From Bacteroidales bacterium (GTDB lineage Bacteria; Bacteroidota; Bacteroidia; Bacteroidales; UBA932), in NCBI GenBank assembly GCA_016290385.1, contig JAEETO010000010.1:1-40558 (forward strand): a stretch of 40,558 nt of DNA, in the 5' to 3' direction. How positions within the stretch are numbered: position 1 is the first letter of the stretch; each line of letters begins with the position of its first letter. Under the pieces are notes generated by a model, which saw only the letters and a program-made list of their open reading frames with translations, was not told where the DNA came from and made no database searches. Made by a program: the position numbers and the translations under genes. Positions 8,161-24,308 of this stretch are shown here, in pieces.

Positions 8161-8164
8161 CGTC

Positions 8165-8185
8165 ATGCCCGGCCTGACCGGGCAT
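8165..8185 (+). repeat. REP-like intercistronic hairpin (copy 1)
   Basis: An 8-bp perfect stem (ATGCCCGG/CCGGGCAT) with a 5-base loop follows directly after the uxaC stop (CGTC precedes it). It has the same GTCAT-stem-loop-stem layout as the hairpins at 16282-16302 and, in reverse orientation, 8675-8693. It may protect mRNA ends or attenuate transcription between uxaC and uxaA; there is no T-run, so it is not a classical terminator. Confidence 0.75.
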
Positions 8186-8190
8186 ATACC

Positions 8191-9738: not shown

Positions 9739-9763
9739 ATTGAATATTCATTAAATACGCTAT

Positions 9764-11203
9764 ATGGAAAGATTAAATCGTACGACGGCGCCTCAGGCGA
9801 AAACGTACACCGAGAAGGTGATCCAGTTCGGGGAAGGCAACTTCCTCCGGGCGTTCATCGAATGGATCATTTGGAAAACCAACCAGAAGACGGACTTCAA
9901 CGGCTCCGTAGTCGTCGTCCAGCCCATCGAGAAAGGCATGGTCAGCTGGCTCAACGAGCAGGACGGTCTTTATCACCTCAACCTGCAGGGCCTGCTCGAC
10001 GGCCAGCCCGTCGACAGCGTCGACCTGATCGACGTCATCTCCCGCGGCCTGAATCCCTACGAGGATTTCGATGCATACCTGAAACTGGCCGAACAGCCCG
10101 AGATCCGCTTCGTCATCTCCAACACGACCGAGGCTGGCATCGCCTTCGACCCTTCCTGCAAGCTGGATGACAAACCGGCCTCTTCGTATCCCGGCAAGCT
10201 CACGCAGTTGCTCTATCACCGTTATCAGTACGTCAAGGGCGACAAGGCCAAAGGCCTGATCATCTTCCCGTGCGAACTGATCTTCGAAAACGGCAAGCAC
10301 CTGAAAGAATGCATCCGCCAGTACATCGACCTGTGGAAACTGGGAGAAGGCTTCCGCGAGTGGTTCGAGACGGCCTGCGGCGTTTACAGCACGCTGGTCG
10401 ACCGTATCGTGCCGGGCTATCCCCGGGATACCGCCGAGCAGCTCTGTGCCCGTGCCGGCTATCAGGACAACCTGCTCGACAAAGCCGAGATCTTCCATCT
10501 CTGGGTCATCGAGGCACCCGCCGAAGTAGCCAGGGAGTTCCCCGCTGACAAGGCCGGGCTCAACGTGCTCTTCGTGCCCTCCGAGGCACCGTACCACGAG
10601 CGCAAGGTCACCTTGCTTAACGGCCCGCATACCGTGCTGTCGCCCGTGGGCTACCTGAGCGGTCTCAATACCGTAAAGGAATGCTGCGAAGACGAGCTGG
10701 TCGGTCCTTATGTGCGCAAAGTCATGTACGAGGAACTGCTTCCGACGCTCAACCTGCCGAAGGAAGAACTTGTGCAGTTCGCCGACGCCGTGATGGAACG
10801 TTTCCGCAATCCTTTCGTGAAACACTTCGTCACCAGCATCATGCTCAACTCCTTCCCGAAATTCAAGACGCGCGACCTGCCGGGCCTGAAAACCTACCTG
10901 GCCCGCAAGGGCGAGCTGCCGAAAGGCATCGTGCTGGGCCTGGCCGCCATCTGTACCTACTATAAAGGTGGGAAGCGGGGAGAAGACGAGATTGTCCCGA
11001 ACGACGATCCGAAGATCATCGCCCTGCTGCAACGTCTCTGGGCCACGGGCGACATCGCCGCTGTGGCCAAGGGTGTCCTGGCCGACGATTTCATCTGGGG
11101 TGAGGACCTCAACCAGATTCCGGGCCTGACCGCGTTGCTGAAGACCTACCTGACCATGATTCATGAAGCCGGCATGCGTGCCGCCGTTCAGAATATCCTG
11201 TAA
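9764..11203 (+). CDS. uxaB: Tagaturonate reductase UxaB
   Basis: This 479-residue protein is an NAD(H)-dependent reductase of the polyol/mannitol dehydrogenase family that converts D-tagaturonate to D-altronate. The N-terminus carries the nucleotide-binding start (EKVIQFGEGNFLRAFIEW). Further family blocks follow: ISNTTEAGIAF, PCELIFENG, VDRIVPGYPRD, a KVTLLNGPHTVLSPVGYL segment with the catalytic Lys region, and NPFVKHFVTSIMLNSFPKF. The length and all blocks agree with UxaB rather than fructuronate reductase UxuB. It lies 25 bases after uxaA and 11 bases before the transporter gene. The preceding gap contains a GAATATTC palindrome of unknown meaning. Confidence 0.96.
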   Translation: MERLNRTTAPQAKTYTEKVIQFGEGNFLRAFIEWIIWKTNQKTDFNGSVVVVQPIEKGMVSWLNEQDGLYHLNLQGLLDGQPVDSVDLIDVISRGLNPYEDFDAYLKLAEQPEIRFVISNTTEAGIAFDPSCKLDDKPASSYPGKLTQLLYHRYQYVKGDKAKGLIIFPCELIFENGKHLKECIRQYIDLWKLGEGFREWFETACGVYSTLVDRIVPGYPRDTAEQLCARAGYQDNLLDKAEIFHLWVIEAPAEVAREFPADKAGLNVLFVPSEAPYHERKVTLLNGPHTVLSPVGYLSGLNTVKECCEDELVGPYVRKVMYEELLPTLNLPKEELVQFADAVMERFRNPFVKHFVTSIMLNSFPKFKTRDLPGLKTYLARKGELPKGIVLGLAAICTYYKGGKRGEDEIVPNDDPKIIALLQRLWATGDIAAVAKGVLADDFIWGEDLNQIPGLTALLKTYLTMIHEAGMRAAVQNIL

Positions 11204-11214
11204 CAACGCTGTCT

Positions 11215-12678
11215 ATGACTACCCAACAGAAACTCATGTCCAACTGGCGCTGGTGGATCTGCTCGCTGCTCTTCGTTGCGACCACGGTCAACTATCTCGA
11301 CCGTCAGGTGCTCTCCCTGACCTACGAGGAATTCATCAAGCCCGAATTCCATTGGACCGATGCCAATTACGGCACCATCACCAGTTTCTTCTCCATCTTC
11401 TACGCCATCTGCTGCCTTTTCGCCGGCAAATTCGTGGACTGGATGGGTACGAAGAAAGGTTATCTGATCGCCATCGGCGTCTGGTCGGCCGGTGCGTGCC
11501 TGCACGCCGGCTGCGGCTGGGCTACCGCCCATCTTGAAGGCCTCGGCACCGTGGAGGCCCTGCGTGCCGTGCAGAGAGGTTCCCAGATCGCCCTGGCTGT
11601 ATCCACTACCTCTGTATTCCTGTTTATGCTCTGTCGCGGTATCCTTGCGCTCGGCGAGGCGGGCAACTTCCCGGCTGCCATCAAGGTGACGGCGGAGTAT
11701 TTCCCGAAGAAGGACCGTGCGTTCGCGACCTCCATCTTCAACGCCGGCGCTTCGGTCGGCGCACTCGCCGCTCCGCTGCTGATCCCGCCTCTGGCGGTGA
11801 AATACGGCTGGGAGATGGCCTTCATCATTATCGGCGGCCTGGGCTTCCTCTGGATGTTCTTCTGGGCCTTCATGTATGACAAACCGGAGAAGAGCAGGCA
11901 CGTGAACGCAGCCGAACTGGAATACATCCGCCAGGACGATGCCGAAGAGGCTGCCGAGAAGGCCGCCGCGGCCGAGGCTGCCGCCCAGGAGAAGGCGATC
12001 CCCTTCCTGAAGTGCTTCACCTACAAGCAGACCTGGTCTTTCATCGTCGGCAAGTTCTTCACCGACGGTGTATGGTGGTTCTTCCTGTTCTGGGCACCGT
12101 CCTATTTCAGCAACCAGTTCCATGCGCCGGCCACATCGACGCTGGGACAGTGGCTGATCTTCACGCTCTATCTCATCGTGACCGTGATCTCCATCTTCGG
12201 CGGCTATCTCCCGAAGGTCTTTGTGGAGAAGAAAGGCATGAATCCGTATTCGGGCCGCATGCTCGCCATGCTCATTTTCGCTTTCTTCCCGATTGCCGCG
12301 CTCTTCGCACAGCCGCTGGGCGTGAACCTCGGTTCTCCCTGGTGGCCGGCCATCCTCATCGGCCTGGCCGGTGCAGGACACCAGGCCTGGAGCGCCAACC
12401 TGTTCTCCACCATCGGCGACATGTTCCCCAAGAGTACCATCGCGACCATCACCGGCATCGGTGCCATGGCCGGCGGTATCGGCTCGATGATTATCCAGAA
12501 GGTGGCGGGCCACCTCTTCACGTATGCGGAGCATGCCGGCGAAGCCTTCAGTTTCCTCGGCTTCACGGGCAAGCCGGCCGGTTATTTCATCATGTTCTGC
12601 TTCTGCGGCCTGGCCTACCTGATTGCCTGGACCATCATGAAGATCCTGGTTCCCAAGTATAAACCCATTGAGCTGTAA
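11215..12678 (+). CDS. Hexuronate MFS transporter (ExuT-like)
   Basis: This 487-residue inner-membrane protein of the anion:cation symporter branch of the major facilitator superfamily has about 12 predicted helices. The N-terminus (RWWICSLLFVATTVNYLDRQ) and the GEAGNFPAAIKVTAEYFPKKDRA loop are typical of ExuT/glucarate-type transporters. An Ala/Glu-rich cytoplasmic loop (residues about 240-262) joins the two six-helix halves. Placement between uxaB and kduD points to import of galacturonate, glucuronate or unsaturated uronates from the periplasm. Exact substrate choice cannot be read from the sequence. Confidence 0.92.
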   Translation: MTTQQKLMSNWRWWICSLLFVATTVNYLDRQVLSLTYEEFIKPEFHWTDANYGTITSFFSIFYAICCLFAGKFVDWMGTKKGYLIAIGVWSAGACLHAGCGWATAHLEGLGTVEALRAVQRGSQIALAVSTTSVFLFMLCRGILALGEAGNFPAAIKVTAEYFPKKDRAFATSIFNAGASVGALAAPLLIPPLAVKYGWEMAFIIIGGLGFLWMFFWAFMYDKPEKSRHVNAAELEYIRQDDAEEAAEKAAAAEAAAQEKAIPFLKCFTYKQTWSFIVGKFFTDGVWWFFLFWAPSYFSNQFHAPATSTLGQWLIFTLYLIVTVISIFGGYLPKVFVEKKGMNPYSGRMLAMLIFAFFPIAALFAQPLGVNLGSPWWPAILIGLAGAGHQAWSANLFSTIGDMFPKSTIATITGIGAMAGGIGSMIIQKVAGHLFTYAEHAGEAFSFLGFTGKPAGYFIMFCFCGLAYLIAWTIMKILVPKYKPIEL

Positions 12679-12679
12679 T

Positions 12680-13534
12680 ATGAGGAAGATCTGGATGCTG
12701 ACCCTGGCGCTGCTGGCCCTGACGGGCTGCAAGTCGCCCGAAGCGACCGTAATGGCCCGCTATGTTCCGGAGCGCGCCGACGACTTCGTGTATGAAAACA
12801 ATCTGGTGGCCGGCCGTTTCTACGGCGAGGCCCTTGAAGGCAATCCCACATCCCCCGGCATCGACGTATGGGTGAAACTGCCCGGAAAACTGGTCGCTGA
12901 CGACTGGTACAAGGGGGCGATGGAGGATCCGGACTATTACCATCACGACCATGGCGGAAAAGACTGCTACAAGGTGGCGGTCTCCCTGGGCGGCGGCGCT
13001 TCCGCTCCGCTGATCGACGGGACACTGCGTTATCCGTCCACGAACTACCGTTCCTACGACATGCTGGAAGAGCGTCCCGACAAAGTGGTCTTCGTGCTCC
13101 ATTATCCCGCCTGGCAGGCTTCCGACGACGTGGCCGTTTCGCTCGACAAGCAGGTTACGGTCTTGCCGGACAGCTATTTCTGCATCGTGGAGGATACGTA
13201 TACGTTCACAGGTGCGGAGACCCTGACCATCGCCGCCGGCGTCAACCGCCATCCGGCGCTGGGCACGCTGGTCGATGAACTCATCATTCCGGGCCGTTAT
13301 GCTCTCTGGGAGCATGCCTCCGACCAGAGCATCGAGCCGGAAGACGGCATGCTCGGCGTGGCCGTCGTCGTCCCGGACGCGGAAACCGCCCGTATCACCG
13401 ATGACGGCGTCCATGGCATCTGCACCCTTGAGGTCCGCAGCGGGGAGCCCTTCCGCTACCTGTTCGGCTCCTGCTGGTCGAAAGGGGAGGTGAAGACAGC
13501 TGAAAACTGGTATGAAATCGTTAAAAAACAATAA
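12680..13534 (+). CDS. DUF4861 family lipoprotein, uronate-locus associated
   Basis: This is a 284-residue predicted lipoprotein; the start at 12680 gives a short signal with lipobox LTGC (Cys17) and leaves one base after the transporter stop. The mature part has DUF4861 features: a YVPERADDFVYENNLVAGRFYG opening, an acidic/His-rich YYHHDHGG segment, then beta-rich sequence (KVVFVLHYPAW, VTVLPDSYFCIVEDTYTF). DUF4861 genes recur beside kduI/kduD and polysaccharide lyases in Bacteroidota, but I know of no established reaction for them. Location suggests a periplasmic step on pectin-derived oligouronides. The stop is 4 bases before kduD. Confidence 0.8.
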   Translation: MRKIWMLTLALLALTGCKSPEATVMARYVPERADDFVYENNLVAGRFYGEALEGNPTSPGIDVWVKLPGKLVADDWYKGAMEDPDYYHHDHGGKDCYKVAVSLGGGASAPLIDGTLRYPSTNYRSYDMLEERPDKVVFVLHYPAWQASDDVAVSLDKQVTVLPDSYFCIVEDTYTFTGAETLTIAAGVNRHPALGTLVDELIIPGRYALWEHASDQSIEPEDGMLGVAVVVPDAETARITDDGVHGICTLEVRSGEPFRYLFGSCWSKGEVKTAENWYEIVKKQ

Positions 13535-13538
13535 ACCC

Positions 13539-14342
13539 ATGAACAATCCTTTTTCCCTGGAAGGCAAGAATGCCTGGATCACCGGCGCTTCCTATGGCAT
13601 TGGCTTCAACATTGCCAAGGCTTTTGTTGGCGCAGGCATCAAGAATATCATTTTCAACGACATCAACGAGGCGGCGCTGGAACGCGGCCTGGCCAATTAC
13701 AAAGAAGCCGGCATCACGAACGTGAAAGGTTACGTCTGCGACGTGACCAAGGAGGACGAAGTGAAGGCCCTCGTGGAGAAGATCCATGCCGAGGTCGGTC
13801 CGATCGACATCCTGGTCAACAACGCCGGCATCATCAAGCGCATCCCCATGCACGAGATGAAACGCGCCGAGTTCCAGGCCGTGATCGACGTGGACCTCGT
13901 GGCCCCTTATATCGTCTCCGCCGCCGTCCTGCCCGAGATGATGGCCCGTCATGAAGGTAAGATCATCAACATCTGTTCGATGATGAGTGAACTGGGCCGC
14001 GAGACCGTGAGCGCTTATGCAGCGGCCAAGGGTGGCCTGAAGATGCTTACCCGCAACATTTGTTCGGAGTACGGCTCCTACAATATCCAGTGCAACGGCA
14101 TCGGCCCCGGCTACATCGCTACGCCACAGACGGCACCGCTGCGCGAACGGCAGCCCGACGGGAGTCGTCACCCGTTCGACAGCTTCATCGTGGCCAAGAC
14201 CCCGGCCGGCCGCTGGCTGGACCCGAGCGAACTGGGCGGACCCGCCGTATTCCTGGCATCCCACGCCTCCGACGCCGTGAACGGCCACGTGCTTTACGTG
14301 GATGGCGGCATCCTGGCCTATATCGGCAAGCAACCGGAATAG
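13539..14342 (+). CDS. kduD: KduD-type 2-dehydro-3-deoxy-D-gluconate 5-dehydrogenase (SDR)
   Basis: KduD reduces 3-deoxy-D-glycero-2,5-hexodiulosonate (DKII) to KDG with NAD(P)H. The 267-residue classical short-chain dehydrogenase shows the TGASYGIG dinucleotide loop (residues 15-22), NNAG (94-97), Ser147 and the catalytic YAAAK (Tyr160, Lys164). The ATG at 13539 is chosen because an upstream in-frame ATG at 13512 lies inside the DUF4861 gene and precedes the normal SDR N-terminus. Position next to kduI supports KduD over a gluconate 5-dehydrogenase, which it also resembles. Confidence 0.93.
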   Translation: MNNPFSLEGKNAWITGASYGIGFNIAKAFVGAGIKNIIFNDINEAALERGLANYKEAGITNVKGYVCDVTKEDEVKALVEKIHAEVGPIDILVNNAGIIKRIPMHEMKRAEFQAVIDVDLVAPYIVSAAVLPEMMARHEGKIINICSMMSELGRETVSAYAAAKGGLKMLTRNICSEYGSYNIQCNGIGPGYIATPQTAPLRERQPDGSRHPFDSFIVAKTPAGRWLDPSELGGPAVFLASHASDAVNGHVLYVDGGILAYIGKQPE

Positions 14343-14372
14343 ATTCCCCGATACGTTCAGAATGACCGTCTT

Positions 14373-15215
14373 ATGAAAATCAATTGCCAAGTACGCCAGG
14401 CATCCAGCCATTTGGACGCCAGGCATTACGACACGGCCCGGATCCGTCAGGAATATCTGGTGGAGAACCTCATGCTTCCCGATGAGATCAACATGGTCTA
14501 TTCGATGTTCGACCGTATCATCGCGGGCGGAGCTGTCCCTGTGCAGGAGGACCTGCTGCTCAGCGCGCCCGAAATCCTGCGCGCGGACTATTTTACCCAG
14601 CGCCGTGAACTGGGCATCATCAATGTCGGCGGCACTGGTGTCGTCCGGGTAGGGGACGAGGAATACACGATTCCGTTCAAGGAGGCCCTGTATGTAGGGC
14701 GGGGCAACCGCCACGTCACTTTCAAGAGCGTGGATCCGCAGCATCCGGCCCATTTCTATTTCTGCTCGGCTACGGCCCATCGCGAGACGGGCGTGAAGCA
14801 GGTGTCGAAAAAAGATGCCGTGGTGATGCACCTCGGCTCGCTGGAGGAGTCCAACGAACGCACCATCAACCGTCTGCTGGTCAAGGAAGTTGTGCCCTGC
14901 TGCCAGTTGCAGATGGGCATGACCGAGCTGGCACCCGGCAGCACCTGGAACACGATGCCGGCTCATACGCACGACCGTCGCATGGAGGTATATTTCTACT
15001 TTGAAGTACCCGAAGACGCCGCTGTCTGCCACTTCATGGGAGAACCGCAGGAGACCCGGCACATCTGGATGCACAACGAGCAGGCTGTCATCTCGCCGCA
15101 GTGGAGCATCCACAGCGCCTGCGCCACCCGCAACTACACCTTCATCTGGGGCATGTGCGGTGAGAACGATGACTACAACGACATGGACTGGTGCGCCACG
15201 AAAGATTTAAGGTAA
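14373..15215 (+). CDS. kduI: 5-keto-4-deoxyuronate isomerase KduI
   Basis: KduI converts 5-keto-4-deoxyuronate (DKI), formed from unsaturated galacturonate released by pectate lyases, to DKII. The 280-residue cupin has the zinc ligands in family spacing: His198 and His200 (PAHTHDRR), Glu205 (MEVYFYFEVP) and His247 (SPQWSIHSA). Other family blocks are LGIINVGG, LYVGRGNRHVTF and NYTFIWGMCGEN near the end. Its presence shows that the operon handles lyase products as well as free galacturonate. Confidence 0.97.
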   Translation: MKINCQVRQASSHLDARHYDTARIRQEYLVENLMLPDEINMVYSMFDRIIAGGAVPVQEDLLLSAPEILRADYFTQRRELGIINVGGTGVVRVGDEEYTIPFKEALYVGRGNRHVTFKSVDPQHPAHFYFCSATAHRETGVKQVSKKDAVVMHLGSLEESNERTINRLLVKEVVPCCQLQMGMTELAPGSTWNTMPAHTHDRRMEVYFYFEVPEDAAVCHFMGEPQETRHIWMHNEQAVISPQWSIHSACATRNYTFIWGMCGENDDYNDMDWCATKDLR

Positions 15216-15235
15216 AACAAAACAAGCATGACTAT

Positions 15236-16273
15236 ATGGCAAAAGTAGTAACATTCGGCGAAGTGATGCTTCGCCTTTCGACACCGGGATTCCTGCGTTT
15301 CGCCCAGGCCCGGCAGTTCGATGCCACTTTCGGCGGTGGAGAGGCCAACGTGGCCGTCTCGCTGGCCAACTATGGCGTGGATGCGCATTTCGTGACGCGC
15401 ATGCCCAAAAACGATATCGCCGACATGTGCCTGGCTGAACTTCGCGGAATGGGCGTGCAACTCGACGGTGTGGTGTATGGCGGTGACCGCGTGGGTATCT
15501 ATTATCTGGAGACGGGAGCCGTGGCCCGCGGCAGCAAGGTGGTTTACGACCGTGCGAATTCCGCGATCGCCGAGATCAAGCCCGGCATGGTGGACTGGCA
15601 CAAGGTGCTGCAGGGTGCCGACTGGTTTCACTGGACGGGCATTACGCCGGCCCTGAGCCAGGGAGCGGCCGATGCCTGCCTGGAGGCGATCAAGGTGGCC
15701 AACGAGATGGGAGTCAAGGTATCCTGTGACCTGAACTACCGCAAGAAACTCTGGAAATACGGCAAATCTGCTTCGGAGGTGATGCCGGCGCTCGTGGAGG
15801 GCTGCGACCTGATCCTGGGCAACGAGGAGGATGCGGAGAAGGAATTCGGCATCAAGCCGGAAGGATTTGATGCGGAGAAGACGGGCGGCGAGATCGACCA
15901 GACCGCTTTCGTCAGCGTCTGCCGCCAGCTCATGGAGAAATTTCCGCGCTGCAAGAAGGTGGCGGTCACCCTTCGCGGTTCGATCAATGCGAACCACAAC
16001 ACCTGGGGCGGCGTGCTCTACGACGGCAAGACGCTCTGGCAGTCGCGTCGTTACGACATCACGCACATCGTGGACCGCGTGGGTGGCGGCGACTCGTTCA
16101 TGGGCGGCCTGCTCTATGGTCTTCTGACCTACGATACCGATCAGCAGGCGATTGAATTCGCTGCTGCGGCATCGGCTCTCAAACACACGATTATCGGCGA
16201 CTACAACCGCGTCACGGTCGCCGAAGTCGAAGGTCTCATGAACGGTGGCGGCAGTGGCCGGGTCTCCCGATAA
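15236..16273 (+). CDS. kdgK: 2-keto-3-deoxygluconate kinase KdgK (PfkB family)
   Basis: KdgK phosphorylates KDG to KDPG. The 345-residue protein is a PfkB/ribokinase-type sugar kinase: N-terminal FGEVMLRLSTPGF, the GGGEANVAVSLANYG substrate motif, CDLNYRKKLW, and the C-terminal anion-hole motif VGGGDSFMGG with catalytic base Asp286. The ATG at 15236 starts the conserved MAKVVTFGEVM sequence; an upstream in-frame ATG at 15191 lies within kduI. The C-terminus (GGGSGRVSR) is low-complexity and runs into the REP-like hairpin region. Confidence 0.95.
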   Translation: MAKVVTFGEVMLRLSTPGFLRFAQARQFDATFGGGEANVAVSLANYGVDAHFVTRMPKNDIADMCLAELRGMGVQLDGVVYGGDRVGIYYLETGAVARGSKVVYDRANSAIAEIKPGMVDWHKVLQGADWFHWTGITPALSQGAADACLEAIKVANEMGVKVSCDLNYRKKLWKYGKSASEVMPALVEGCDLILGNEEDAEKEFGIKPEGFDAEKTGGEIDQTAFVSVCRQLMEKFPRCKKVAVTLRGSINANHNTWGGVLYDGKTLWQSRRYDITHIVDRVGGGDSFMGGLLYGLLTYDTDQQAIEFAAAASALKHTIIGDYNRVTVAEVEGLMNGGGSGRVSR

Positions 16274-16281
16274 GTAACGTC

Positions 16282-16302
16282 ATTCCGGGCTTGCCCCGGA
16301 AT
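16282..16302 (+). repeat. REP-like intercistronic hairpin (copy 3)
   Basis: An 8-bp perfect stem (ATTCCGGG/CCCGGAAT) with a 5-base loop, preceded by AACGTC and followed by CTC. It occupies most of the gap between kdgK and eda and ends 15 bases before the eda ATG. The flanking TAACGTCAT matches the copy after uxaC, while the stem bases differ in a compensatory way. Confidence 0.75.
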
Positions 16303-16317
16303 CTCAAACCGAAGAAT

Positions 16318-16980
16318 ATGGCAAAGTTCAAGAAGATCGATACGATCAACATCATCCGCAGCACCGGCATCGTCCCGGTGTTCTACAACAGCGACGTGGA
16401 GCTGACGAAGCAGGTCGTGAAGGCCTGTTACGACGGCGGAATCCGGGCTTTTGAGTTTACAAACCGCGGTGACGGCGCCCACCGGGTGTTCAAGGACGTC
16501 ATCGCATATGTCCGGAAGGAATGTCCGGACATGGCGTTCGGCACCGGAACAATCCTCGACGCGCCGACGGCAGTCATCTACATGCAGCTGGGCGCCGATT
16601 TCCTGGTGTCCCCCTGTCTGTCCGAAGAAGTCGTCACGGTGGCCAACCGCCGCGGCGTTCCGTATTCGCCGGGCTGCGGCACGGTGACCGAGATCGTCCG
16701 AGCAATGGAGCTGGGTTGTGACCTGGTGAAAGTGTTCCCGGCCGGAACGGTCGGCGGTCCTGCTTTCGTCAAGAACATCCTCGCCCCGCTGCCCTGGGCC
16801 ATGGTCATGGCCACGGGCGCGGTGGAGCCCACCGAAGAGAACCTCAAGGCCTGGGCCGCCTCCGGCGTCACGGCCGTCGGCATGGGCTCGAAACTCTTCC
16901 CGAAAGAGAAACTGGCTGCGGGTGACTGGCAGGGAATCGCCGGTCTCTGCACGAAATGCCTCGACTGGTTCAGTCGCTAG
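16318..16980 (+). CDS. eda: KDPG/KHG aldolase Eda
   Basis: This class I aldolase splits KDPG to pyruvate and glyceraldehyde-3-phosphate, the last step of both uronate branches. The 220-residue protein has catalytic Glu46 (FEFTNR), the phosphate-binding region (SPCLSEEV, YSPGCGTVTE) and the Schiff-base Lys138 in LVKVFPAG. The ATG at 16318 (MAKFKKIDTI) is preferred; an upstream in-frame TTG at 16291 lies inside the hairpin repeat. The stop overlaps the convergent response-regulator gene by 11 bases, and a 12-bp hairpin starts 16 bases downstream. Confidence 0.96.
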   Translation: MAKFKKIDTINIIRSTGIVPVFYNSDVELTKQVVKACYDGGIRAFEFTNRGDGAHRVFKDVIAYVRKECPDMAFGTGTILDAPTAVIYMQLGADFLVSPCLSEEVVTVANRRGVPYSPGCGTVTEIVRAMELGCDLVKVFPAGTVGGPAFVKNILAPLPWAMVMATGAVEPTEENLKAWAASGVTAVGMGSKLFPKEKLAAGDWQGIAGLCTKCLDWFSR

Positions 16981-17665
16981 AAATCATTTTCCAGTAAGAC
17001 TCCCGGTAGGATTCTCCCACCGGGAGTCTTGTCTTATCATCGAGCGTCACTTCGTTGCGCCGGGCTTCCCGCACCCGGTCGAGCGCGATGATGTAGGAGC
17101 GGTGGATGCGCAGGAACCGGTCCTGTGGCAGTTCATCCAGGATATTCTTCATGCGATAGAAAACGATGGCCGGGGCATCTTCCCCGTCCAGATGGATCTT
17201 CAGGTATTCGCCCATGCCTTCGATGTAGCGGATACGTTGCGTTTCGATGCGGATCCCATGGTTGGCCGTGTTGAAACTGAGAAAGTTTCCTTTTGATTCG
17301 TCCAGGGCGCGTTTCATAGAAAGCCTGTCTTCCAGTTTTTTGACCGAATCCAGAAACTCGTTGAAGCTGAAAGGCTTCAACAGATAGTCAACCGCATTGA
17401 CACGGAAACCCTCCACGGCATATTCCGAATATGCCGTCGTAAAGATTACCAACGGTGGATGCTCGAGCGAGCGGACGAAGTCCATCCCATTGATATCGGG
17501 CATGTTGATGTCGACCAGCAGGGCGTCGGCCTGTTCGAGCCAGGGTTGCGCCTCGCGTGGGCTTGCACAGGCGGCCAGCAGCTGGAGTCCGGGAATCTTT
17601 TTGATATAGATTTCCAGGAGTTGCAGGGCAAGCGGTTCGTCATCGATGGCCAGAATCCTGATCAT
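16970..17665 (-). CDS. LytTR-family response regulator
   Basis: This 231-residue protein has a receiver domain with acidic pocket Asp8/Asp9, phospho-acceptor Asp52 (LLVDINMPDINGMDF), the switch Thr in FTTAYSEYAVEGF and Lys in DYLLKPFS. A C-terminal LytTR DNA-binding domain follows (residues about 125-231: IRYIEGMGEYLKIHL, RFLRIHRSYIIALDRV, LPVGESYRESYW). It overlaps the sensor kinase gene by 4 bases (ATGA), so the two are translationally coupled. LytTR regulators bind pairs of short direct repeats, and such a pair is present at 18667-18697. Its 3' end overlaps eda convergently. Confidence 0.95.
   Translation of the reverse strand: MIRILAIDDEPLALQLLEIYIKKIPGLQLLAACASPREAQPWLEQADALLVDINMPDINGMDFVRSLEHPPLVIFTTAYSEYAVEGFRVNAVDYLLKPFSFNEFLDSVKKLEDRLSMKRALDESKGNFLSFNTANHGIRIETQRIRYIEGMGEYLKIHLDGEDAPAIVFYRMKNILDELPQDRFLRIHRSYIIALDRVREARRNEVTLDDKTRLPVGESYRESYWKMISSD
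16996..17030 (+). terminator. Perfect 12-bp hairpin just after eda, inside the response-regulator 3' coding end
   Basis: The arms AAGACTCCCGGT (16996-17007) and ACCGGGAGTCTT (17019-17030) are perfectly complementary around an 11-base loop, starting 16 bases after the eda stop. The following plus-strand sequence is only moderately T-rich, so this would be a non-canonical terminator for the uronate operon. The same bases encode the RLPVGESYRESYW region of the convergent regulator, so coding constraint may also explain part of the pattern. Confidence 0.45.
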
Positions 17666-18627
17666 GCCTGTTCGCTTTTAGGAGTGAGAGGAATATCGAG
17701 CAACACGCGGTAGCTGTCGGGCTGTTCGTCGATATGCAAAGCGTAATCGCTGCCGTAGAGCAGGTCCAGGCGCTTGCGGATGTTGTCCATTCCTAGACCA
17801 TGCGGTTCTGTCTGCCTGGCGGGGTGGAGGGAGTTGGCGCAGGAAAAGAGAATGCGGCGCTGGGTCAGCTCCACGGAGAGCCGTACGAAAGAGGGGGCTT
17901 CATAACTGATGCCATGCTTGAAAGCGTTCTCCACGAACGAGGCCATCAGCAGCGGAGGGACTACAGCACTTCCAGCGTCGAAGGGCAACGCGTCCTCGAT
18001 CCGGACGGATTCCGGATAGCGAAGCCGCATCAGGGACAGGTAGTGGCGGAGATAATCCAGTTCATGGGATAGGGGAATGGTGGGCGCCTCTCCTTCGTAG
18101 AGTACAATGCGCATCAGCTTCGAGAACTCGCTCACAGCCTCCGTGGCCTTGTCCGGATCGGTGTAGATGAGCGACTGGATGTTGTTGAGCGTGTTCATGA
18201 AGAAATGCGGATTGATTTGGTAGCGGAGGGCTTCCAGCTGCCGGCTCACGTTGGCGGCCTGGAGTTCCTTCAGTTCGGCTTCATGTTTCCGCGAGCGGTA
18301 GAGGGCGGTCAGTCCCAAATCGCCGGCCACCAGCAGGATGCCGATGATCAGTTCCTGTGTTTCCGGACGGATCGGGCCCCGTCCGTCGGCGGGCGGCAGT
18401 CCGGGGCGGTCCATCCGCCATTCGTCGGGTGGCGGCCCAGGAAAACCCTCATCTTGCCAGTCGGACCTTCGGTCCGGGTAGAAACAGAAAATGCCGAATG
18501 CCGCGAGCAGGAGGAGCGTGAACAGCAGATACCAGAGCTTGTTCTTTCTCCGTGACAAAGGCTCCAGCAGGAAGTGGTGTATCAATACCAGGGCCAGGAA
18601 GGGGAGTATCTTCAGAATCACGTTCAT
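17662..18627 (-). CDS. LytS-type sensor histidine kinase
   Basis: This 321-residue membrane kinase has two N-terminal helices (residues about 5-22 and 30-48), a proline-rich periplasmic stretch (about 50-90), another helix (91-110) and a cytoplasmic His_kinase domain. Phospho-acceptor His141 lies in QINPHFFMNTLNNIQS. The ATP-binding domain shows an N-box (SFVENAFKHGISY) and G-box (GLGMDNIRKRLDLLYG). No known ligand-binding sensor domain is present, so the stimulus is unknown. It pairs with the LytTR regulator immediately downstream. A TAAATTTG promoter box (minus strand) lies almost at its start codon. Confidence 0.94.
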   Translation of the reverse strand: MNVILKILPFLALVLIHHFLLEPLSRRKNKLWYLLFTLLLLAAFGIFCFYPDRRSDWQDEGFPGPPPDEWRMDRPGLPPADGRGPIRPETQELIIGILLVAGDLGLTALYRSRKHEAELKELQAANVSRQLEALRYQINPHFFMNTLNNIQSLIYTDPDKATEAVSEFSKLMRIVLYEGEAPTIPLSHELDYLRHYLSLMRLRYPESVRIEDALPFDAGSAVVPPLLMASFVENAFKHGISYEAPSFVRLSVELTQRRILFSCANSLHPARQTEPHGLGMDNIRKRLDLLYGSDYALHIDEQPDSYRVLLDIPLTPKSEQA

Positions 18628-18631
18628 ATTG

Positions 18632-18639
18632 CAAATTTA
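18632..18639 (-). promoter_or_regulatory. Promoter -7 box for the two-component operon
   Basis: TAAATTTG on the minus strand matches the Bacteroidota TAnnTTTG box. It ends only 4 bases before the kinase ATG, so the transcript would be leaderless or nearly so. No good TTTG -33 box is seen at the expected distance. Confidence 0.45.
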
Positions 18640-18666
18640 CAGATAATTCTTCAATGCCCCCGCCGC

Positions 18667-18697
18667 TTCGTTGAAGAAAACAGGGCGTTCGTTGAAG
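18667..18697. promoter_or_regulatory. Putative LytTR operator (direct repeat, 21-bp period)
   Basis: The 10-mer TTCGTTGAAG occurs twice, at 18667-18676 and 18688-18697, exactly 21 bp (two helical turns) apart, in the gap between the kinase gene and the divergent cassette. LytTR regulators recognise pairs of roughly 9-bp sites containing GTT at this spacing. The second copy ends 27 bases before the TAACTTTA box, a typical activator position. Confidence 0.6.
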
Positions 18698-18724
18698 GAT
18701 CCTGAATTTGGCTGAGTAATTGAA

Positions 18725-18732
18725 TAACTTTA
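18725..18732 (+). promoter_or_regulatory. Candidate -7 box for the VTC/DUF4956 cassette
   Basis: TAACTTTA matches TAnnTTTG at 5 of 6 fixed positions and lies 17 bases before the ATG at 18750. No TTTG occurs at the normal 19-21 base distance, which fits an activator-dependent promoter served by the adjacent direct repeat. Confidence 0.4.
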
Positions 18733-18749
18733 TAAAAAACATCCACACC

Positions 18750-19166
18750 ATGATGAAATTCCTGCGATATATGCTGACGACCGCTTTCCTGCTGACGGCC
18801 GTCCTGCCTTCGCTTCAAGCCCAGGACAAGAAGATCAACAAGAAAAACCTTGTCATCAAGGAATGGAACGCGGACGTAAAAACCAACGCCAAGGTACTTG
18901 ACCACGTTACCACCTACAATGCCGACGGCAAGAAAATCGAAGAGATCGAGTATACCGGAAAGGCGCAGAAATGGCGCAAGCGCTATGAATACGATGCCGC
19001 CGGCAAGCAGGTCATGGAACTGGTCTACGATGAGCGCAACAGGCTGGTCAATATGAAGAAGTTCGAATACAACGAGTTCGGGCGGAAAAAGGTGACCTAT
19101 ACCTATGATGCGAAAGGAAAACTCACCGCGACCAAGTATTATGAATATTTAATGGAGGAAGAATGA
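18750..19166 (+). CDS. Small secreted protein with YD/RHS-like repeats
   Basis: The product is 138 residues (137 if ATG 18753 is used). It has a Sec signal peptide (FLRYMLTTAFLLTAVLPSLQAQ) and a mature part built of short beta-hairpin repeats: TTYNADGKKIEEIEY, YEYDAAGKQVMELVYD, FEYNEFGRKKVTYTYD and AKGKLTATKYYEY. These resemble single YD/RHS units rather than a full RHS toxin, and no toxin domain follows. Function is unknown. It opens the cassette facing the LytTR pair, with one base before the next gene, so it is probably co-transcribed with the surface protein, VTC-domain and DUF4956 genes. Confidence 0.75.
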   Translation: MMKFLRYMLTTAFLLTAVLPSLQAQDKKINKKNLVIKEWNADVKTNAKVLDHVTTYNADGKKIEEIEYTGKAQKWRKRYEYDAAGKQVMELVYDERNRLVNMKKFEYNEFGRKKVTYTYDAKGKLTATKYYEYLMEEE

Positions 19167-19167
19167 T

Positions 19168-21030
19168 ATGAAACGTTTATTTATGAGCATGATGCTGGTA
19201 TTGATCGCAATCGTCGTGTGCAATTGCATCGGCGACGACATCATTTCCGTCGTCGATGGCGGCGAAGAAGCGAGCTGGAACATCGTCACCCCGGTCGATA
19301 CCACGACTCCGCCTGCATCCCAGACGACTTCGACGGATACGACCGGTACCGATACGGGCGCCGTGACCACGACTTTCACGTCGGCGGGTGACAGTTCATC
19401 CGACGACGACATCTCCAATACGACTTTCACCCGGCTGGTGACCGTGACCTACGCTTCGGGCGGTGCCACCGTCACGGGCTACAATGCCGTCGCGGACGTC
19501 ATGAATGTCGTGGTGAGCGGCAATCAGGTGACCATTACCTATACTGGAAGCGAGAACGTGGCCTACAAACTGACCGGCACGGCGTCCGACGGCTTCTTCA
19601 AACTATACAGTTCCAAGAAACAGGCAATCTGGTTGAGCGGCGTCAGCCTTACAAACAGCGCCGGCGCAGCCATCAACAACCAAAGTGGCAAACGTACCTT
19701 CGTCTACGTGGAGGGTACCAACAAACTGGCCGATGGTGCTTCCGCGGCCTATTCGACCAGCAGCGACGAAGACATGAAGGGCGTGATCTTCTCCGAAGGC
19801 CAGCTCATCTTCAGCGGCAGCGGCTCGCTGAGCGTGACGGCCAACAACAAGCAGGGCAAGAGCGGCATCGTCTCCGACGACTATGTGCGCATGATGGCCA
19901 GCCCCACTGTTACGGTAACGGCCGGCAGCAGCGCGGGCCACGGCGTCAAGGGCAACGATTACATCCAGCTCTCCAACGGAACGCTGAACATCTCTACCGC
20001 TGCTGCCATGAAAAAAGGCATTACCTCCGACGACTACGTCCTGGTCGAGGGCGGCGTCACGACGATCCAGGTGACCGGCGGCGTGGCCTACGACAGTGAC
20101 GATAGCGAATACAAAGGTTCGGCCGGCATCAAGGCCGACAACTACTTCGCCATGACCGGTGGTACGGTGACCATTACCAACAGCGGCAATGGCGGCAAGG
20201 GCATCAGTGCCGGCAGCTATGATTACGACAGTACGACGCATGCTGTGGCGGACAGCTACATCTCCGGCGGGACGCTCAAGATCACTACGAGCGGCAGCGA
20301 ATCGAACGACGTGTCCTGCAAGGGCATCAAGATCGGCTGGGTCACCAAGAGCGGCAACAAGGTCACCGGCTATGCGGGCAACATGACGGTGAGCGGCGGC
20401 TCGATTGTCATCAACTGCGCGAAATCCGAGGGCTTCGAAGCCAAAGGCAACCTGACATTCAAGGGCGGTGAGACCTATGTGTACTCCACGGGCGACGATG
20501 CCATCAACTGTCAGGCTGAAATGAATGTCACCGGCGGCTATGTCTATGCCTATTCCACGGCCAACGACGCCATGGACGCCAACCATGACCTGAAGATCTC
20601 GGGCGGTTACGTCTTCGCCATCACGACCAAGGGCTCCCCGGAGGTGGCTATCGATGCCAATACCGAGGAACGCTACAAATTGTACATTACCGGCGGTGTC
20701 GTCGTGGCCTACGGCGGCCTTGAGAGCGGCTATTCCGCATCCCAGAGCGTTTATACCATGAGTTGCACGGGCGGCAGCTGGAATGCCCTTCACAACGGCA
20801 GTTCTTATATTGCTGCGTTCAAGGCGCCGTCGGGCATCTCGTCTGTGGCCGTTTCGGCCCCGTCGCTCAAGAATGGCTACAAGGGCGTATCCGTAGGCAG
20901 TACGACTTACTGCAACGTTGTATGGGCTACTTCCGGCATTTCCGGTGGTTCGTCTGTCTCCCTGAGTACCTATTCCGGTGGTGGAAGTGGTCCGGGCGGT
21001 GGTCCGGGCGGCGGCCCCGGCTGGCATTGA
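19168..21030 (+). CDS. Cthe_2159-like beta-helix carbohydrate-binding surface protein
   Basis: This 620-residue exported protein has a hydrophobic signal ending in VVCNC; it is a possible but non-canonical lipoprotein (Cys18 or Cys20, with Val or Asn at -1). Residues about 40-90 are a Thr/Ser/Asp-rich linker. Residues about 90-595 contain repeating beta-helix rungs such as SDDYVRMMASPTVTVTAG, KGNDYIQLSNGTLNIS and TGGYVYAYSTANDAMDAN, typical of the family named after Clostridium thermocellum Cthe_2159, a binder of cellulose and acidic sugars. The tail is a Gly/Pro repeat (GPGGGPGGGPGWH). Such proteins often neighbour VTC-domain and DUF4956 genes, as here. It probably binds or organises an anionic polymer at the cell surface. 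Confidence 0.82.
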   Translation: MKRLFMSMMLVLIAIVVCNCIGDDIISVVDGGEEASWNIVTPVDTTTPPASQTTSTDTTGTDTGAVTTTFTSAGDSSSDDDISNTTFTRLVTVTYASGGATVTGYNAVADVMNVVVSGNQVTITYTGSENVAYKLTGTASDGFFKLYSSKKQAIWLSGVSLTNSAGAAINNQSGKRTFVYVEGTNKLADGASAAYSTSSDEDMKGVIFSEGQLIFSGSGSLSVTANNKQGKSGIVSDDYVRMMASPTVTVTAGSSAGHGVKGNDYIQLSNGTLNISTAAAMKKGITSDDYVLVEGGVTTIQVTGGVAYDSDDSEYKGSAGIKADNYFAMTGGTVTITNSGNGGKGISAGSYDYDSTTHAVADSYISGGTLKITTSGSESNDVSCKGIKIGWVTKSGNKVTGYAGNMTVSGGSIVINCAKSEGFEAKGNLTFKGGETYVYSTGDDAINCQAEMNVTGGYVYAYSTANDAMDANHDLKISGGYVFAITTKGSPEVAIDANTEERYKLYITGGVVVAYGGLESGYSASQSVYTMSCTGGSWNALHNGSSYIAAFKAPSGISSVAVSAPSLKNGYKGVSVGSTTYCNVVWATSGISGGSSVSLSTYSGGGSGPGGGPGGGPGWH

Positions 21031-21043
21031 TCGGATCTGCGCT

Positions 21044-21841
21044 ATGGCTGATTTCCAACATCGATCCCTGGCGGAATCCCTCACGGCCATCGCTCCCATC
21101 ACCCTGGCGGAGATGGATGCCATTAAGTTGATGAACCGTATCGATACCAAGTATCTCACCAACGAAACTACGTTGGTGCAGGTACTGGCCGATGCGGCAG
21201 CGGCTGGCTACCGGGCGTTCGAGACGGAAGGGGAGAAGCGCAGTCCCTACAATTCCGTGTACTATGACACGGCAGGCCTGCGCATGTTCCTCGACCATCA
21301 CAACCGGCGCCTGGTACGGCAGAAGGTGCGCACACGCAGCTATCTGGGCAGTGGCTTGAGCTTTCTGGAGATCAAGCGCAAGAACAACAAGGGTCGCACC
21401 AGCAAAAAGCGCACGGCCATTCCCCCGGGTCAACTGATGGATTTCAGCGGCAACCCTGAAGCGTGCGCCTACCTGGCCCGCAAGTCTTGGTTCACGGCCC
21501 CGGAACTGTCTCCGGTACTCGAGACCCGCTTTACGCGGATTACGCTCGTCAATCCGGCCAGGACGGAGCGTCTGACCATCGATACGTGCCTGCAATTCAA
21601 GAATTTCCGAACCGGACTTTCGGCTTCGCTGCGGGACGCGGTCATCATCGAGCTCAAGCAGGACGGCCATGCCGACAGTCCCATGAAACGCATCCTGCTC
21701 GATCACCGGGTCAAGCCGGTACGGATCAGCAAATACTGTATTGCCGTCACCCTGACGGAACCTGCTGCACGTTCGGGCCGCTTCAAGGCCAAGGTACGGC
21801 AGATAGAAAAGACGATAAACCATAAAATCGACATACAATGA
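21044..21841 (+). CDS. VTC-domain polyphosphate-polymerase-like protein
   Basis: This 265-residue protein has the CYTH/TTM tunnel fold of the VTC polyphosphate polymerase domain. Recognisable elements are NRIDTKY (Arg32, Lys36), YYDT (73-76), the basic RQKVRTRSY strand (Arg92, Lys94, Arg96, Arg98), LEIKRKNNKGRTSKKR (Glu109, Lys111, Lys113), VIIELKQDG and the ISKYC block. In yeast Vtc4 these residues bind ATP/polyphosphate in a tunnel. Whether bacterial copies next to DUF4956 make polyphosphate or act on another polymer is not settled to my knowledge. The ATG at 21044 follows the previous stop by 13 bases; upstream in-frame codons lie in the Gly-rich tail of the previous gene. It overlaps DUF4956 by 4 bases. 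Confidence 0.88.
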   Translation: MADFQHRSLAESLTAIAPITLAEMDAIKLMNRIDTKYLTNETTLVQVLADAAAAGYRAFETEGEKRSPYNSVYYDTAGLRMFLDHHNRRLVRQKVRTRSYLGSGLSFLEIKRKNNKGRTSKKRTAIPPGQLMDFSGNPEACAYLARKSWFTAPELSPVLETRFTRITLVNPARTERLTIDTCLQFKNFRTGLSASLRDAVIIELKQDGHADSPMKRILLDHRVKPVRISKYCIAVTLTEPAARSGRFKAKVRQIEKTINHKIDIQ

Positions 21842-22605
21842 TACCCTTGCAAGACCTGGGCGAGTACACCCTCGCCGACGAGGAGCTCTTCGACGTGCAG
21901 ACCATTACCGATGCGATGATGACCACCTCGCAGAGCCTGGCCGAACTGGCCATCCGCTTCTTCCTGAATCTGGCGGTCTGCTGGATTCTGGTGCAGTTTT
22001 TCTACTACCGGAAGAGCCGGCGCCGCGACTACTATTTCACCTTCATGGTCTTCTCCTCCGCAATGCTGATGCTGCTCTACATGATGGGCAACGTCGAGGT
22101 GGGGGTGGGGTTGACCCTGGGCCTGTTCGCCATTTTCGGCGTGATCCGCTACCGTACAGAGACAGTACCTATCCGGGAGATGACCTATCTGTTCGTAATC
22201 ATCGCGCTGGCGGCCGTCAACGGCCTCGCGCCCGTCTACAAGCTTACTGGCGCCACGGGTCCGAATCCTCACTATGTGCTCAATGCCGGCTCTGTTGCGG
22301 TGACCGCACTAGCCAATCTGTTGGTGATTGTGCTGGTCTGGGTGCTCGAGAGTGAGCGGCTGCTAAAGCATACTTCGGCCAAGCTCGTGCTCTACGACCG
22401 CATCGAACTCATCGTGCCGGAACGCCGCGCCGAACTGGTCGCCGATTTGGAGAAACGTACGGGCCTGAAAGTGGACAACCTGGAAATCGGCCACGTCGAT
22501 TTCCTCAAGGATGCCGCCTTTATCAAGGTCTATTACACGCTGTCGAAAGGGCAGGCCGCCTCGATCGACACATTGACCAAGGCCAAGGATTTTATAGAAC
22601 AGTAA
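21838..22605 (+). CDS. DUF4956 integral membrane protein
   Basis: This 255-residue protein has about five membrane helices (residues roughly 37-57, 64-83, 87-106, 115-132 and 148-168) and a C-terminal cytoplasmic alpha/beta domain (about 175-255). The family hallmark GLTLGLFAIFGVIRYRTETVPIREMTYLF lies between helices 3 and 4 (only part is quoted as a motif: GVIRYRTETVPIREM). Its ATG overlaps the VTC gene's stop (ATGA), so the two products are probably made together and may form a membrane complex, with DUF4956 as the pore or anchor. Function is unknown. Confidence 0.92.
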   Translation: MIPLQDLGEYTLADEELFDVQTITDAMMTTSQSLAELAIRFFLNLAVCWILVQFFYYRKSRRRDYYFTFMVFSSAMLMLLYMMGNVEVGVGLTLGLFAIFGVIRYRTETVPIREMTYLFVIIALAAVNGLAPVYKLTGATGPNPHYVLNAGSVAVTALANLLVIVLVWVLESERLLKHTSAKLVLYDRIELIVPERRAELVADLEKRTGLKVDNLEIGHVDFLKDAAFIKVYYTLSKGQAASIDTLTKAKDFIEQ

Positions 22606-22608
22606 GCC

Positions 22609-23409
22609 ATGAGAAAGATTCTGACCGTCTGCCTGTTACTGATACTTGCGCTGCCGGGGCGCGGGCAGACTTCCTATACCATCCCGGTCGGGGTCATGGA
22701 AACTGACCTGGGCGGCCGTTTCTCGCTGGGCGTGGACAAGAAGCTGTCCAAGGGCCTGCACTTGTCAATCGGCGGCGAACTGCGCTTGAAGGACAACTTT
22801 TCCACTGTCGGCCGCTGGCAAGTCGGCGCAGACCTGAGCTACAAGGTGAATTCCTACCTGAAACTGGGCGGCGGCTACATCTTCATCGACAAGCTGAAAT
22901 CCAGCGGGGACTGGTCTTCGCGCCACCGGTTCTATGTCGATGCCACAGGCGGCATCCGGGTGGGCGACTGGCGCTTTTCCCTCAGGGAAAGGCTGCAGTT
23001 GACGCACCGCAACGCCGATGATATGAATGTCTTCCAGGCGAATCCCAATTCCCTGGCGCTCAAGAGTCGCATCAAGGCGCAGTACAAGGGGCGAAGCGTT
23101 AGTCCCTACGCCTATATCGAACTGCGCAATGTGTTCAATGATCCCGCCTGCACGGCGAAATATGATGGTTCCTCGTTCAGCGACTATGTCTTTACGGGCT
23201 ATACCGATGCATACGTCAACCGCTTGCGCGGGGCGCTCGGCCTGGAGTGGAAGCTGAGCAAGCAACATGCGCTCGATTTCACCCTGCTGGGCGATTACTG
23301 CTATGACAAAGTGGTGGATACGAACGCTGAAGGAACGAAACTCAAGTCGATCGCCTATGAGCGGGCGTTCAACACGAATATCTGTATCGGGTACAAGTTT
23401 TCGTTCTAG
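22609..23409 (+). CDS. DUF2490-like outer-membrane beta-barrel
   Basis: This 266-residue protein has a signal peptide (MRKILTVCLLLILALPGRGQ) and a succession of amphipathic beta strands with alternating charged and aromatic residues (LHLSIGGELRLKDNF, RWQVGADLSYKVNSYLKLGGGY, WRFSLRERLQLTHRN). It ends in YKFSF, a C-terminal aromatic signature for BAM insertion. This resembles DUF2490 proteins, whose role is unknown. It starts 3 bases after the DUF4956 stop and ends the cassette. In this setting it could be an outer-membrane exit or anchor, which is inference. The stop shares the palindrome CTAG with the convergent esterase stop. Confidence 0.85.
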   Translation: MRKILTVCLLLILALPGRGQTSYTIPVGVMETDLGGRFSLGVDKKLSKGLHLSIGGELRLKDNFSTVGRWQVGADLSYKVNSYLKLGGGYIFIDKLKSSGDWSSRHRFYVDATGGIRVGDWRFSLRERLQLTHRNADDMNVFQANPNSLALKSRIKAQYKGRSVSPYAYIELRNVFNDPACTAKYDGSSFSDYVFTGYTDAYVNRLRGALGLEWKLSKQHALDFTLLGDYCYDKVVDTNAEGTKLKSIAYERAFNTNICIGYKFSF

Positions 23410-24308
23410 TCTTCCGGCCGGAAGGCATGCTCCAGCAGGTAGCTGTAATAGTAGATCCAGTTGTACCAGTCGTGGATGCCTTCGGTGCAGATGTAGGTGT
23501 ACGGATAGCCGTGGCGGTCGAAGTGGCGGCGCAGGTTTTGGACGTGGAGATAGAAATAATCCTGGTCGCTGGTACAGACGTAGTAGCCTTTGGGAGGAGT
23601 GGGAACGAATTGCGTTTTCCACTTCTTTTTTATGCCGGAATAGAACAGGATATGCTGGCTGGGCTTGGGGATAACTTTCCAGAACGGGGAGAAGAGGCCG
23701 ATGTAGTCGAAGGTCTGCGGGGAATCGGCGGAGATGTACAGACTCTGCAGCGCGCCGACCGATAGTCCGCAGATGGCCCGGTGCGCCTTGTCAGGGATGG
23801 TGCGGAAGTGGTTGTCGACATAGCCTACGACGTCGTGCACGAACGCGCTTTCCACTGTTCCATCGATCTCGAAGAGCGACTCCAGGGCATCTTTGTAGCG
23901 GGAATTTTCAAAGTCCTCGTCGTCGTTGTACTGGTTGACATTGGGCAGTACAATGATGGCCGGGACGGCATGTCCCTGGCTGTAAATGCTGTCGGTGACC
24001 TGGAACACATGTCCGCGCTGGATCCACGCGGTCTCATGGCCACGGGCGCCGTGCAGCAGGTAAACGACGGGATAGCGCTGGTCGCCTTCCTCGTAGTCGG
24101 GCGGGAGATAGACGATCATGCGCCGCTGCGTCGGTCCCTTCACGGAACAGGGATACCATGCTTCAACCACATTGCCGACAGGCTGGTAGCCTGATTCGTC
24201 AACGGGTTCGCCGGCATAATAATAGGCCTCGCTCCGATTGCGAAACACCCCGCAGGAAGACAGCACTCCCAGCGCCAGCAACAGAACGATCAGTATCCTT
24301 TTTCGCAT
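23406..24308 (-). CDS. Esterase D/Fes-like alpha/beta-hydrolase lipoprotein
   Basis: This 300-residue predicted lipoprotein (lipobox LSSC, Cys19) has an esterase fold: PVVYLLHGARGHETAW, the nucleophile elbow GLSVGA (Ser183) and a C-terminal GIHDWYNW segment with the probable catalytic His near residue 283. Such enzymes in Bacteroidota often remove acetyl or feruloyl groups from plant polysaccharides, or cleave siderophores; the substrate here is not decided. It is transcribed divergently from the GH27 gene, which hints at hemicellulose or galactan side-chain removal. A TACCTTTG box lies 9 bases before its ATG. Confidence 0.85.
   Translation of the reverse strand: MRKRILIVLLLALGVLSSCGVFRNRSEAYYYAGEPVDESGYQPVGNVVEAWYPCSVKGPTQRRMIVYLPPDYEEGDQRYPVVYLLHGARGHETAWIQRGHVFQVTDSIYSQGHAVPAIIVLPNVNQYNDDEDFENSRYKDALESLFEIDGTVESAFVHDVVGYVDNHFRTIPDKAHRAICGLSVGALQSLYISADSPQTFDYIGLFSPFWKVIPKPSQHILFYSGIKKKWKTQFVPTPPKGYYVCTSDQDYFYLHVQNLRRHFDRHGYPYTYICTEGIHDWYNWIYYYSYLLEHAFRPED

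Follow-up and report, generated by a model that had tools for sequence, protein, structure and literature searches.

Several described systems share parts with the gene cassette analyzed here. In yeast, the VTC complex couples synthesis to a membrane channel (PMC9911596). Beside Gram-positive Pel genes, cotH is found together with genes for a VTC-type "poly-phosphate polymerase" and an adjoining DUF4956 protein (PMC7112168), and the NELoc-2 locus of Clostridium perfringens carries VTC and CotH genes, with the VTC gene next to that of a cytoplasmic-membrane protein labelled tubulin/FtsZ (PMC2879425), which is taken to be DUF4956. Proteins of the Cthe_2159 family bind cellulose and polygalacturonic acid (PMC6712302). 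LytTR-domain regulators use paired direct repeats that are usually 12 bp apart and at times 11 or 13, with 11 in Bacteroides examples, and that adjoin the regulator genes (PMC6193735). The cassette in question combines elements of these systems. It lies in a window of 40,558 nucleotides (positions 1 to 40,558 of contig JAEETO010000010.1, assembly GCA_016290385.1, labelled C77) from a Bacteroidales genome of 2.36 Mb with an estimated completeness of 83.5%, and it consists of a LytS/LytTR sensor-regulator pair and five genes for a small YD-repeat protein, a Cthe_2159-type protein, a VTC enzyme, a DUF4956 membrane protein and a DUF2490 protein.

The cotH-VTC-DUF4956 group is thus already published, and the Bacteroidales cassette is a variant of it. 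It differs in that CotH is missing from the cassette (no Pfam match in its proteins), which instead has a LytTR switch and a set of Gram-negative envelope genes (DUF2490, Cthe_2159, YD). In comparison with the known Cthe_2159 family, the gene follows a LytTR-type repeat and has a VTC gene as its neighbour, and in comparison with known LytTR paired-repeat systems, a sensor kinase/regulator pair here faces a surface-protein cassette. A search of open-licence papers, excluding preprints, found no paper that gives the VTC-DUF4956 pair a function, and none that deals with the Bacteroidales cassette or with its switch, apart from one table row of a Bacteroides thetaiotaomicron iron study, which lists DUF4956/DUF2490 genes at -7.6 with 0.175, not significant (PMC10434189). 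As shown below, VTC and DUF4956 form a pair, and the surface protein with its switch can be separated from them.

The ORF (open reading frame) list and Pfam agree with the first-pass annotation, which had been made from the sequence alone, on all seven genes, their families, coordinates and strands, and on the gaps of 1, 13, -4 and 3 bases between the five plus-strand genes (Table 1, in which every Pfam score exceeds its cut-off). Two details of that picture change: the probable start of the YD gene is ATG 18750 and not the listed TTG 18720, as judged by eye, and the LytTR pair is transcribed divergently from the five genes. The listed VTC frame from 20978 overlaps the Cthe_2159 gene, and a start at ATG 21044 gives the 13-base gap. 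The Cthe_2159-type protein is a probable lipoprotein with a Gly-rich tail (lipobox assigned by eye). The DUF2490 protein also scored 26.8 bits against Pfam OMP_b-brl, slightly below the cut-off. A PHROGs scan of three proteins gave no matches, and neither did PDB sequence searches with the protein labelled A3 and the window's Cthe_2159 protein.

Table 1. Genes and predicted operator of the cassette (positions in the window).
Feature	Position	Strand	Basis
Response regulator, receiver and LytTR DNA-binding domain	16970..17665	-	Pfam PF00072 61.8 bits, PF04397 60.3 bits
LytS-type sensor histidine kinase	17662..18627	-	Pfam PF06580 (His_kinase) 89.3 bits
Predicted LytTR operator, TTCGTTGAAG twice, 21 bp apart, 11-bp spacer	18667..18697	+	Repeat search
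Small secreted YD-repeat protein	18750..19166	+	RHS_repeat 27.8 bits (weak); start and signal peptide by eye
Cthe_2159-type beta-helix protein	19168..21030	+	Pfam PF14262 149.8 bits, cut-off 25.8
VTC-domain (TTM tunnel) enzyme, polyphosphate-polymerase type	21044..21841	+	Pfam PF09359 105.1 bits
DUF4956 membrane protein	21838..22605	+	Pfam PF16316 169 bits
DUF2490 protein, outer-membrane beta-barrel type	22609..23409	+	PF10677 74.4 bits

For comparison, we used 295 genomes of the order, 40 genomes of the same genus and, as a correction for ancestry, one genome per family (119 genomes, G000-G119 without G008, a set that relies on listing numbers). A total of 161 loci were read: the window, 80 order-wide loci hand-picked among the VTC matches listed, and the 80 nearest of at least 523 confirmed DUF4956 loci. 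These represent 158 distinct loci, because the two sets share two records and because L116 and L117 have the same DUF4956 end; in the genus set, L213 duplicates the record L115. Gene maps were produced by ORF and hidden Markov model scripts rather than by curated calls, and two locus tallies disagree on YD, CotH, histidine kinase and response regulator due to differences in overlap handling and in a 7-kb limit. The exact five-gene order is local; it is repeated in the same-genus loci L212 and L217 and is therefore not unique to this genome. The same gene content on one strand, in varying order, was found in 21 of the 158 loci, the window counted. The nearest named DUF4956 relatives among the matches listed are from Bacteroidales, many of them from the rumen.

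VTC and DUF4956 are a real pair, in line with the co-occurrence claimed in the first-pass annotation. VTC was found in 144 and DUF4956 in 151 of the 295 order genomes; 139 have both, 5 only VTC, 12 only DUF4956 and 139 neither. With one genome per family, the corresponding counts are 57, 1, 6 and 55. The 158 distinct loci contain 150 neighbouring VTC/DUF4956 pairs on the same strand, with a median gap of 4 bp, which is more than chance would give. Among the first 81 loci, VTC sequences fall into two groups (58 and 23) and DUF4956 sequences likewise (56 and 23), and according to the locus maps each VTC group pairs only with its own DUF4956 group. Other genes recur near the pair. A HlyD/membrane-fusion-like protein is encoded just before b-type VTC-DUF4956 genes (L034 4921-5988 and 11 aligned relatives), a weak lead with Pfam HlyD_D23 in 2 of the 12 aligned members (best 4.8e-6). 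Arylsulfotransferase, propeller and CotH proteins occur upstream of YD-VTC-DUF4956-DUF2490 in L059, L060, L064, L069 and others, and three scanned representatives of these upstream proteins carry Por_Secre_tail sorting domains.

Residues and fold support a VTC protein of the Vtc4 type. Vtc4 is its best solved relative (E 2.4e-14). Ten Vtc4 positions were checked in an alignment of 54 of 81 VTC sequences. Nine (K200, R264, R266, K281, K294, R361, R373, E426 and K458) are identical in 54/54, so that the basic tunnel residues do align with Vtc4 and are intact, as the first-pass annotation had stated, with K455 as the exception. Changes at R264, R266 and E426 inactivate Vtc4 (PMC9911596), and K458 is catalytic (PMC4641920). 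With the structural model (predicted local distance difference test, pLDDT, 96), Foldseek placed chains of VTC proteins at ranks 1-13 (best E 8.3e-14), and other triphosphate tunnel metalloenzymes (TTM) followed from 2e-9. By analogy with Vtc4, the enzyme would make polyphosphate from ATP. The protein resembles the yeast complex in its tunnel fold, in nine of the ten tunnel and catalytic positions checked, and in nearly always having a membrane partner nearby. It differs in that neither SPX nor membrane domains were matched (Pfam sees only VTC in the 287-residue frame) and in that the partner, DUF4956, is of another family.

In the DUF4956 model (pLDDT 82.7), about five long helices make up the N-terminal region, and the C-terminal part has a beta-alpha-beta-beta arrangement. 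Positions 104 and 106 are basic and position 114 is acidic in all aligned rows that are ungapped there, and these fully conserved charges are predicted to face the cytoplasm, applying the positive-inside rule by eye. A relation to MgtC, which DUF4956 resembles by eye, is not supported: hhalign gave a probability of 7.8% (E 0.0044) with an MgtC profile built from only ten proteins. In L115, DUF4956 and DUF2490 form one open frame (7977-9467, 496 amino acids), which may be a natural fusion that joins the barrel to the inner-membrane part, or the result of a single indel.

The switch faces the cassette across a 10-base direct repeat, with TTCGTTGAAG at 18667-18676 and a perfect copy at 18688-18697, between the sensor and YD genes. 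The spacer lies within the 11-13 bp of LytTR systems, and Pfam identifies both the LytTR-domain regulator and the sensor kinase. An exact 10-mer at a spacing of 20-23 arose in 4 of 5000 shuffles that kept base composition. When up to 3 mismatches are allowed, the operator pattern has one occurrence in the window, and 0 of 100 dinucleotide shuffles contain it. The relaxed pattern with up to 2 mismatches has a single match in its own assembly, where 3 LytTR matches were found, the cassette regulator among them. In the 40 same-genus genomes, all 10 sites with 0-1 mismatch are located at the start of Cthe_2159 or YD-Cthe_2159. In L223, the site and the listed ORF overlap, and the actual gene start is probably downstream of the site. 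The relaxed pattern has many two-mismatch matches across these genomes, part of which must be chance, since a reversed control pattern also scores. Repeats were also looked for in eight relatives whose sensor or regulator is divergent: L212 and L217 have an exact repeat of at least 9 bases at 21 bp, L112, L113 and L214 a degenerate one as judged by eye, and L216 a one-mismatch operator site, while L116 has a different repeat pair, spaced at 22 bp, of which its near twin L117 has a single copy. The LytTR control proposed in the first-pass annotation thus gains support from an operator-like repeat, to which the regulator is predicted to bind. Sensor genes adjoining a cassette gene in 15 of the 158 loci also speak for the link, as against only 3 LytTR matches in the host genome.

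The surface protein and its switch do not require VTC. A VTC match was found in 9 of the 40 same-genus genomes (8 above the cut-off). Four of the ten best sites belong to genomes that have VTC. The six genomes with the other sites (assemblies 78-98% complete) show no VTC match and keep both the site and Cthe_2159. In five of them (L218-L222) sensor and regulator face the gene, but not in L223. Two of them look like natural deletions. L221 matches the window at 83.5% over regulator, sensor, YD and Cthe_2159 and then jumps to the end of DUF2490; VTC, DUF4956 and DUF2490 residues 1-202 are missing, the Cthe_2159 stop codon is kept, and an alpha-galactosidase gene farther along is also absent. In L222, VTC, DUF4956 and DUF2490 residues 1-106 are missing and Cthe_2159 is intact. 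In L221 a contig end lies about 1.5 kb from the junction, and in L222 the junction is internal. The different end points suggest separate events, as does the sensor tree, which places L221 with the window and L217, and L222 with L219 and L220. In this tree (n=26), the seven VTC-less rows, including L225 with no adjoining Cthe_2159, need 5 changes, of which supported branches force 4. An equally low number was reached in 67 of 500 shuffles, and several rows are long-branched.

Association between the two modules is not random. Cthe_2159 was found in 52 of the 295 genomes, 38 of them with VTC, and among the 80 nearest DUF4956 loci 35 contain it. Of 69 Cthe_2159 genes, at least 18 have VTC or DUF4956 no more than 6.5 kb away, far more than expected by chance (the P value is rough). 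This count, which used 44 VTC/DUF4956 places and one Cthe_2159 per contig stretch, is a lower bound, because the places were hand-picked and only the listed Cthe_2159 matches were considered. The first-pass annotation had proposed a single machine of five proteins. Its Vtc4-type enzyme, VTC/DUF4956 pairing and LytTR link hold, but the five genes are not one obligate machine, because Cthe_2159 and the site occur without VTC, deletions spare Cthe_2159, and VTC-DUF4956 often occurs without Cthe_2159.

The reading that we favour, tentatively and at not quite even confidence, is that VTC and DUF4956, with or without DUF2490, are an optional unit for making and exporting polyphosphate beside a switch-controlled surface protein. 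In the first module, the LytS-type sensor would act on the LytTR regulator, which would bind the paired repeat and control the Cthe_2159 beta-helix protein and the small YD protein. The second module, probably in the same transcription unit, is optional: the cytoplasmic VTC enzyme would build polyphosphate from ATP and hand the chain to DUF4956 in the inner membrane, DUF4956 would move it into the periplasm, and the DUF2490 barrel would serve the polymer at the outer membrane. The polymer may then decorate or work on a surface layer that includes the beta-helix protein.

Several observations weigh against the proposed make-and-export unit or its link to the switch. The literature search described above found no report of a bacterial VTC protein making polyphosphate. 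K455 of Vtc4 is not conserved, and position 34 is Asp or Glu in 54/54 sequences, compared to Thr198 in Vtc4; by our own mapping, this position would belong to the acidic patch that characterizes TTM phosphatases. A role of DUF4956 as polymer channel or exporter is a guess, because no relative of known structure was detectable (Foldseek best E 0.38; no match in a sequence search). In the order-wide set, DUF2490 is present in 44 of 81 loci and Cthe_2159 in 10 of 81, and many VTC loci lack them. Sensor homologues adjoin a cassette gene in 15 of the 158 loci, only about a tenth (L182 is scored through an opposite-strand Cthe_2159 gene), and the operator tracks Cthe_2159 and not VTC, as the six VTC-less sites indicate. 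Finally, no sigma-70-type promoter was found in 18500-23700, with a scan that does not model Bacteroidetes promoters.

A different use of the same polymer is suggested by CotH kinases. VTC and DUF4956 might supply the ATP-poor space beyond the inner membrane with polyphosphate or a different phosphoryl donor, so that CotH-family kinases could phosphorylate surface proteins, for example beta-helix proteins. VTC and CotH do co-occur (123 genomes with both, 21 with only VTC, 62 with only CotH, 89 with neither; odds ratio 8.4), also per family (48, 10, 22 and 39; p 3e-7), although ancestry was corrected for by one genome per family only. PPK1 served as a control and showed no link to VTC, neither in the 295 genomes (90 with both, 54 only VTC, 101 only PPK1, 50 neither; p 0.47) nor per family. 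CotH is encoded in 23 of the 158 distinct loci, and among six proteins of about 1000 residues beside b-type DUF4956-VTC genes (L079 1465-4488, L053, L093, L102, L084 and L055), 4/6 have CotH and 4/6 a right-handed Beta_helix, the first member having neither; these are not necessarily the same four. The host genome has one CotH gene elsewhere, and the published cotH-polymerase-DUF4956 arrangement of Pel loci points the same way (PMC7112168). On the other hand, the 62 genomes with CotH alone mean that CotH does not need VTC, and 21 genomes have VTC without CotH. In addition, CotH is outside this cassette, and Bacillus CotH acts with ATP in the mother-cell cytoplasm. We consider phosphoryl supply to be unlikely as the function of this cassette. 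CotH and Cthe_2159 share 1 of the 158 loci (about 6 expected, p 0.005), which also counts against it; a complementarity of the two is not supported, as the locus sets were picked differently and the lineages differ, and as genome-wide Cthe_2159 is present in 5 of the 21 genomes that have VTC but no CotH (counted by eye). The sole CotH gene found in the host genome (L192, G000:C56, 853-3186, 554 amino acids) encodes a lipoprotein-like protein by eye and ends 3 bases from a convergent MgtC gene.

PPK1, an enzyme family other than VTC, would give the same polymer as the VTC enzyme in our reading. It was not found in the host genome (83.5% complete). A plain replacement of PPK1 by VTC can be rejected, because the two are independent over the 295 genomes.

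The neighbourhood of the cassette also suits pectin use. Directly upstream of the LytTR pair, positions 6745-16980 hold a uronate (pectin) catabolic run (UxaC, altronate-dehydratase type, mannitol-dehydrogenase type, MFS transporter, DUF4861, gluconate 5-dehydrogenase, KduI, PfkB kinase and KDPG aldolase). Together with the polygalacturonic acid binding of Cthe_2159 proteins and the persistence of operator and Cthe_2159 in genomes without VTC, this could mean that the core of the locus is a LytTR-controlled protein holding acidic plant polysaccharide, with VTC-DUF4956-DUF2490 as a loosely linked passenger. We regard this as improbable, given how frequently Cthe_2159 genes lie near VTC or DUF4956 (see above), and because by blastn the uronate end beside the regulator is common to only 1 of 14 same-genus loci (L219), with a short aldolase end in L222. 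Farther upstream, after a SusD-like gene, the window encodes a 1742-residue protein with repeated DUF4957/DUF5123 units (1506-6734).

Least probable is that the VTC protein does other TTM work, for example hydrolysing tripolyphosphate or sensing nucleotides, and regulates DUF4956 instead of feeding it polymer: TTM folds do include several activities (PMC4641920), position 34 is acidic, and Ala260 and Ala262 of Vtc4 are replaced by the invariant R92 and K94, but K458 is kept, other acidic-patch positions are basic as in Vtc4 (R32, K121/R123 and K205, by our own patch mapping), and Foldseek ranks VTC chains ahead of phosphatases.

Extended beyond this locus, the make-and-export reading would describe a bacterial counterpart of yeast VTC with an unrelated membrane part, DUF4956, in which polymerase and exporter deliver polyphosphate to the envelope, either decorating beta-helix proteins or as donor for CotH kinases, and which is LytTR-switched in some lineages; we consider this wider form doubtful at present. 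Genetics may be possible, because Bacteroides cellulosilyticus DSM 14838 (L135) has VTC, DUF4956, DUF2490, Cthe_2159, sensor and regulator genes together, and the two apparent natural deletions in the genus are at hand as well. VTC and DUF4956 each occur in roughly half of the 295 order genomes, independent of PPK1. If the pair makes and exports polyphosphate, these bacteria would have a second, envelope-directed polyphosphate pathway, and the question of what feeds kinases outside the cytoplasm would become a testable puzzle.

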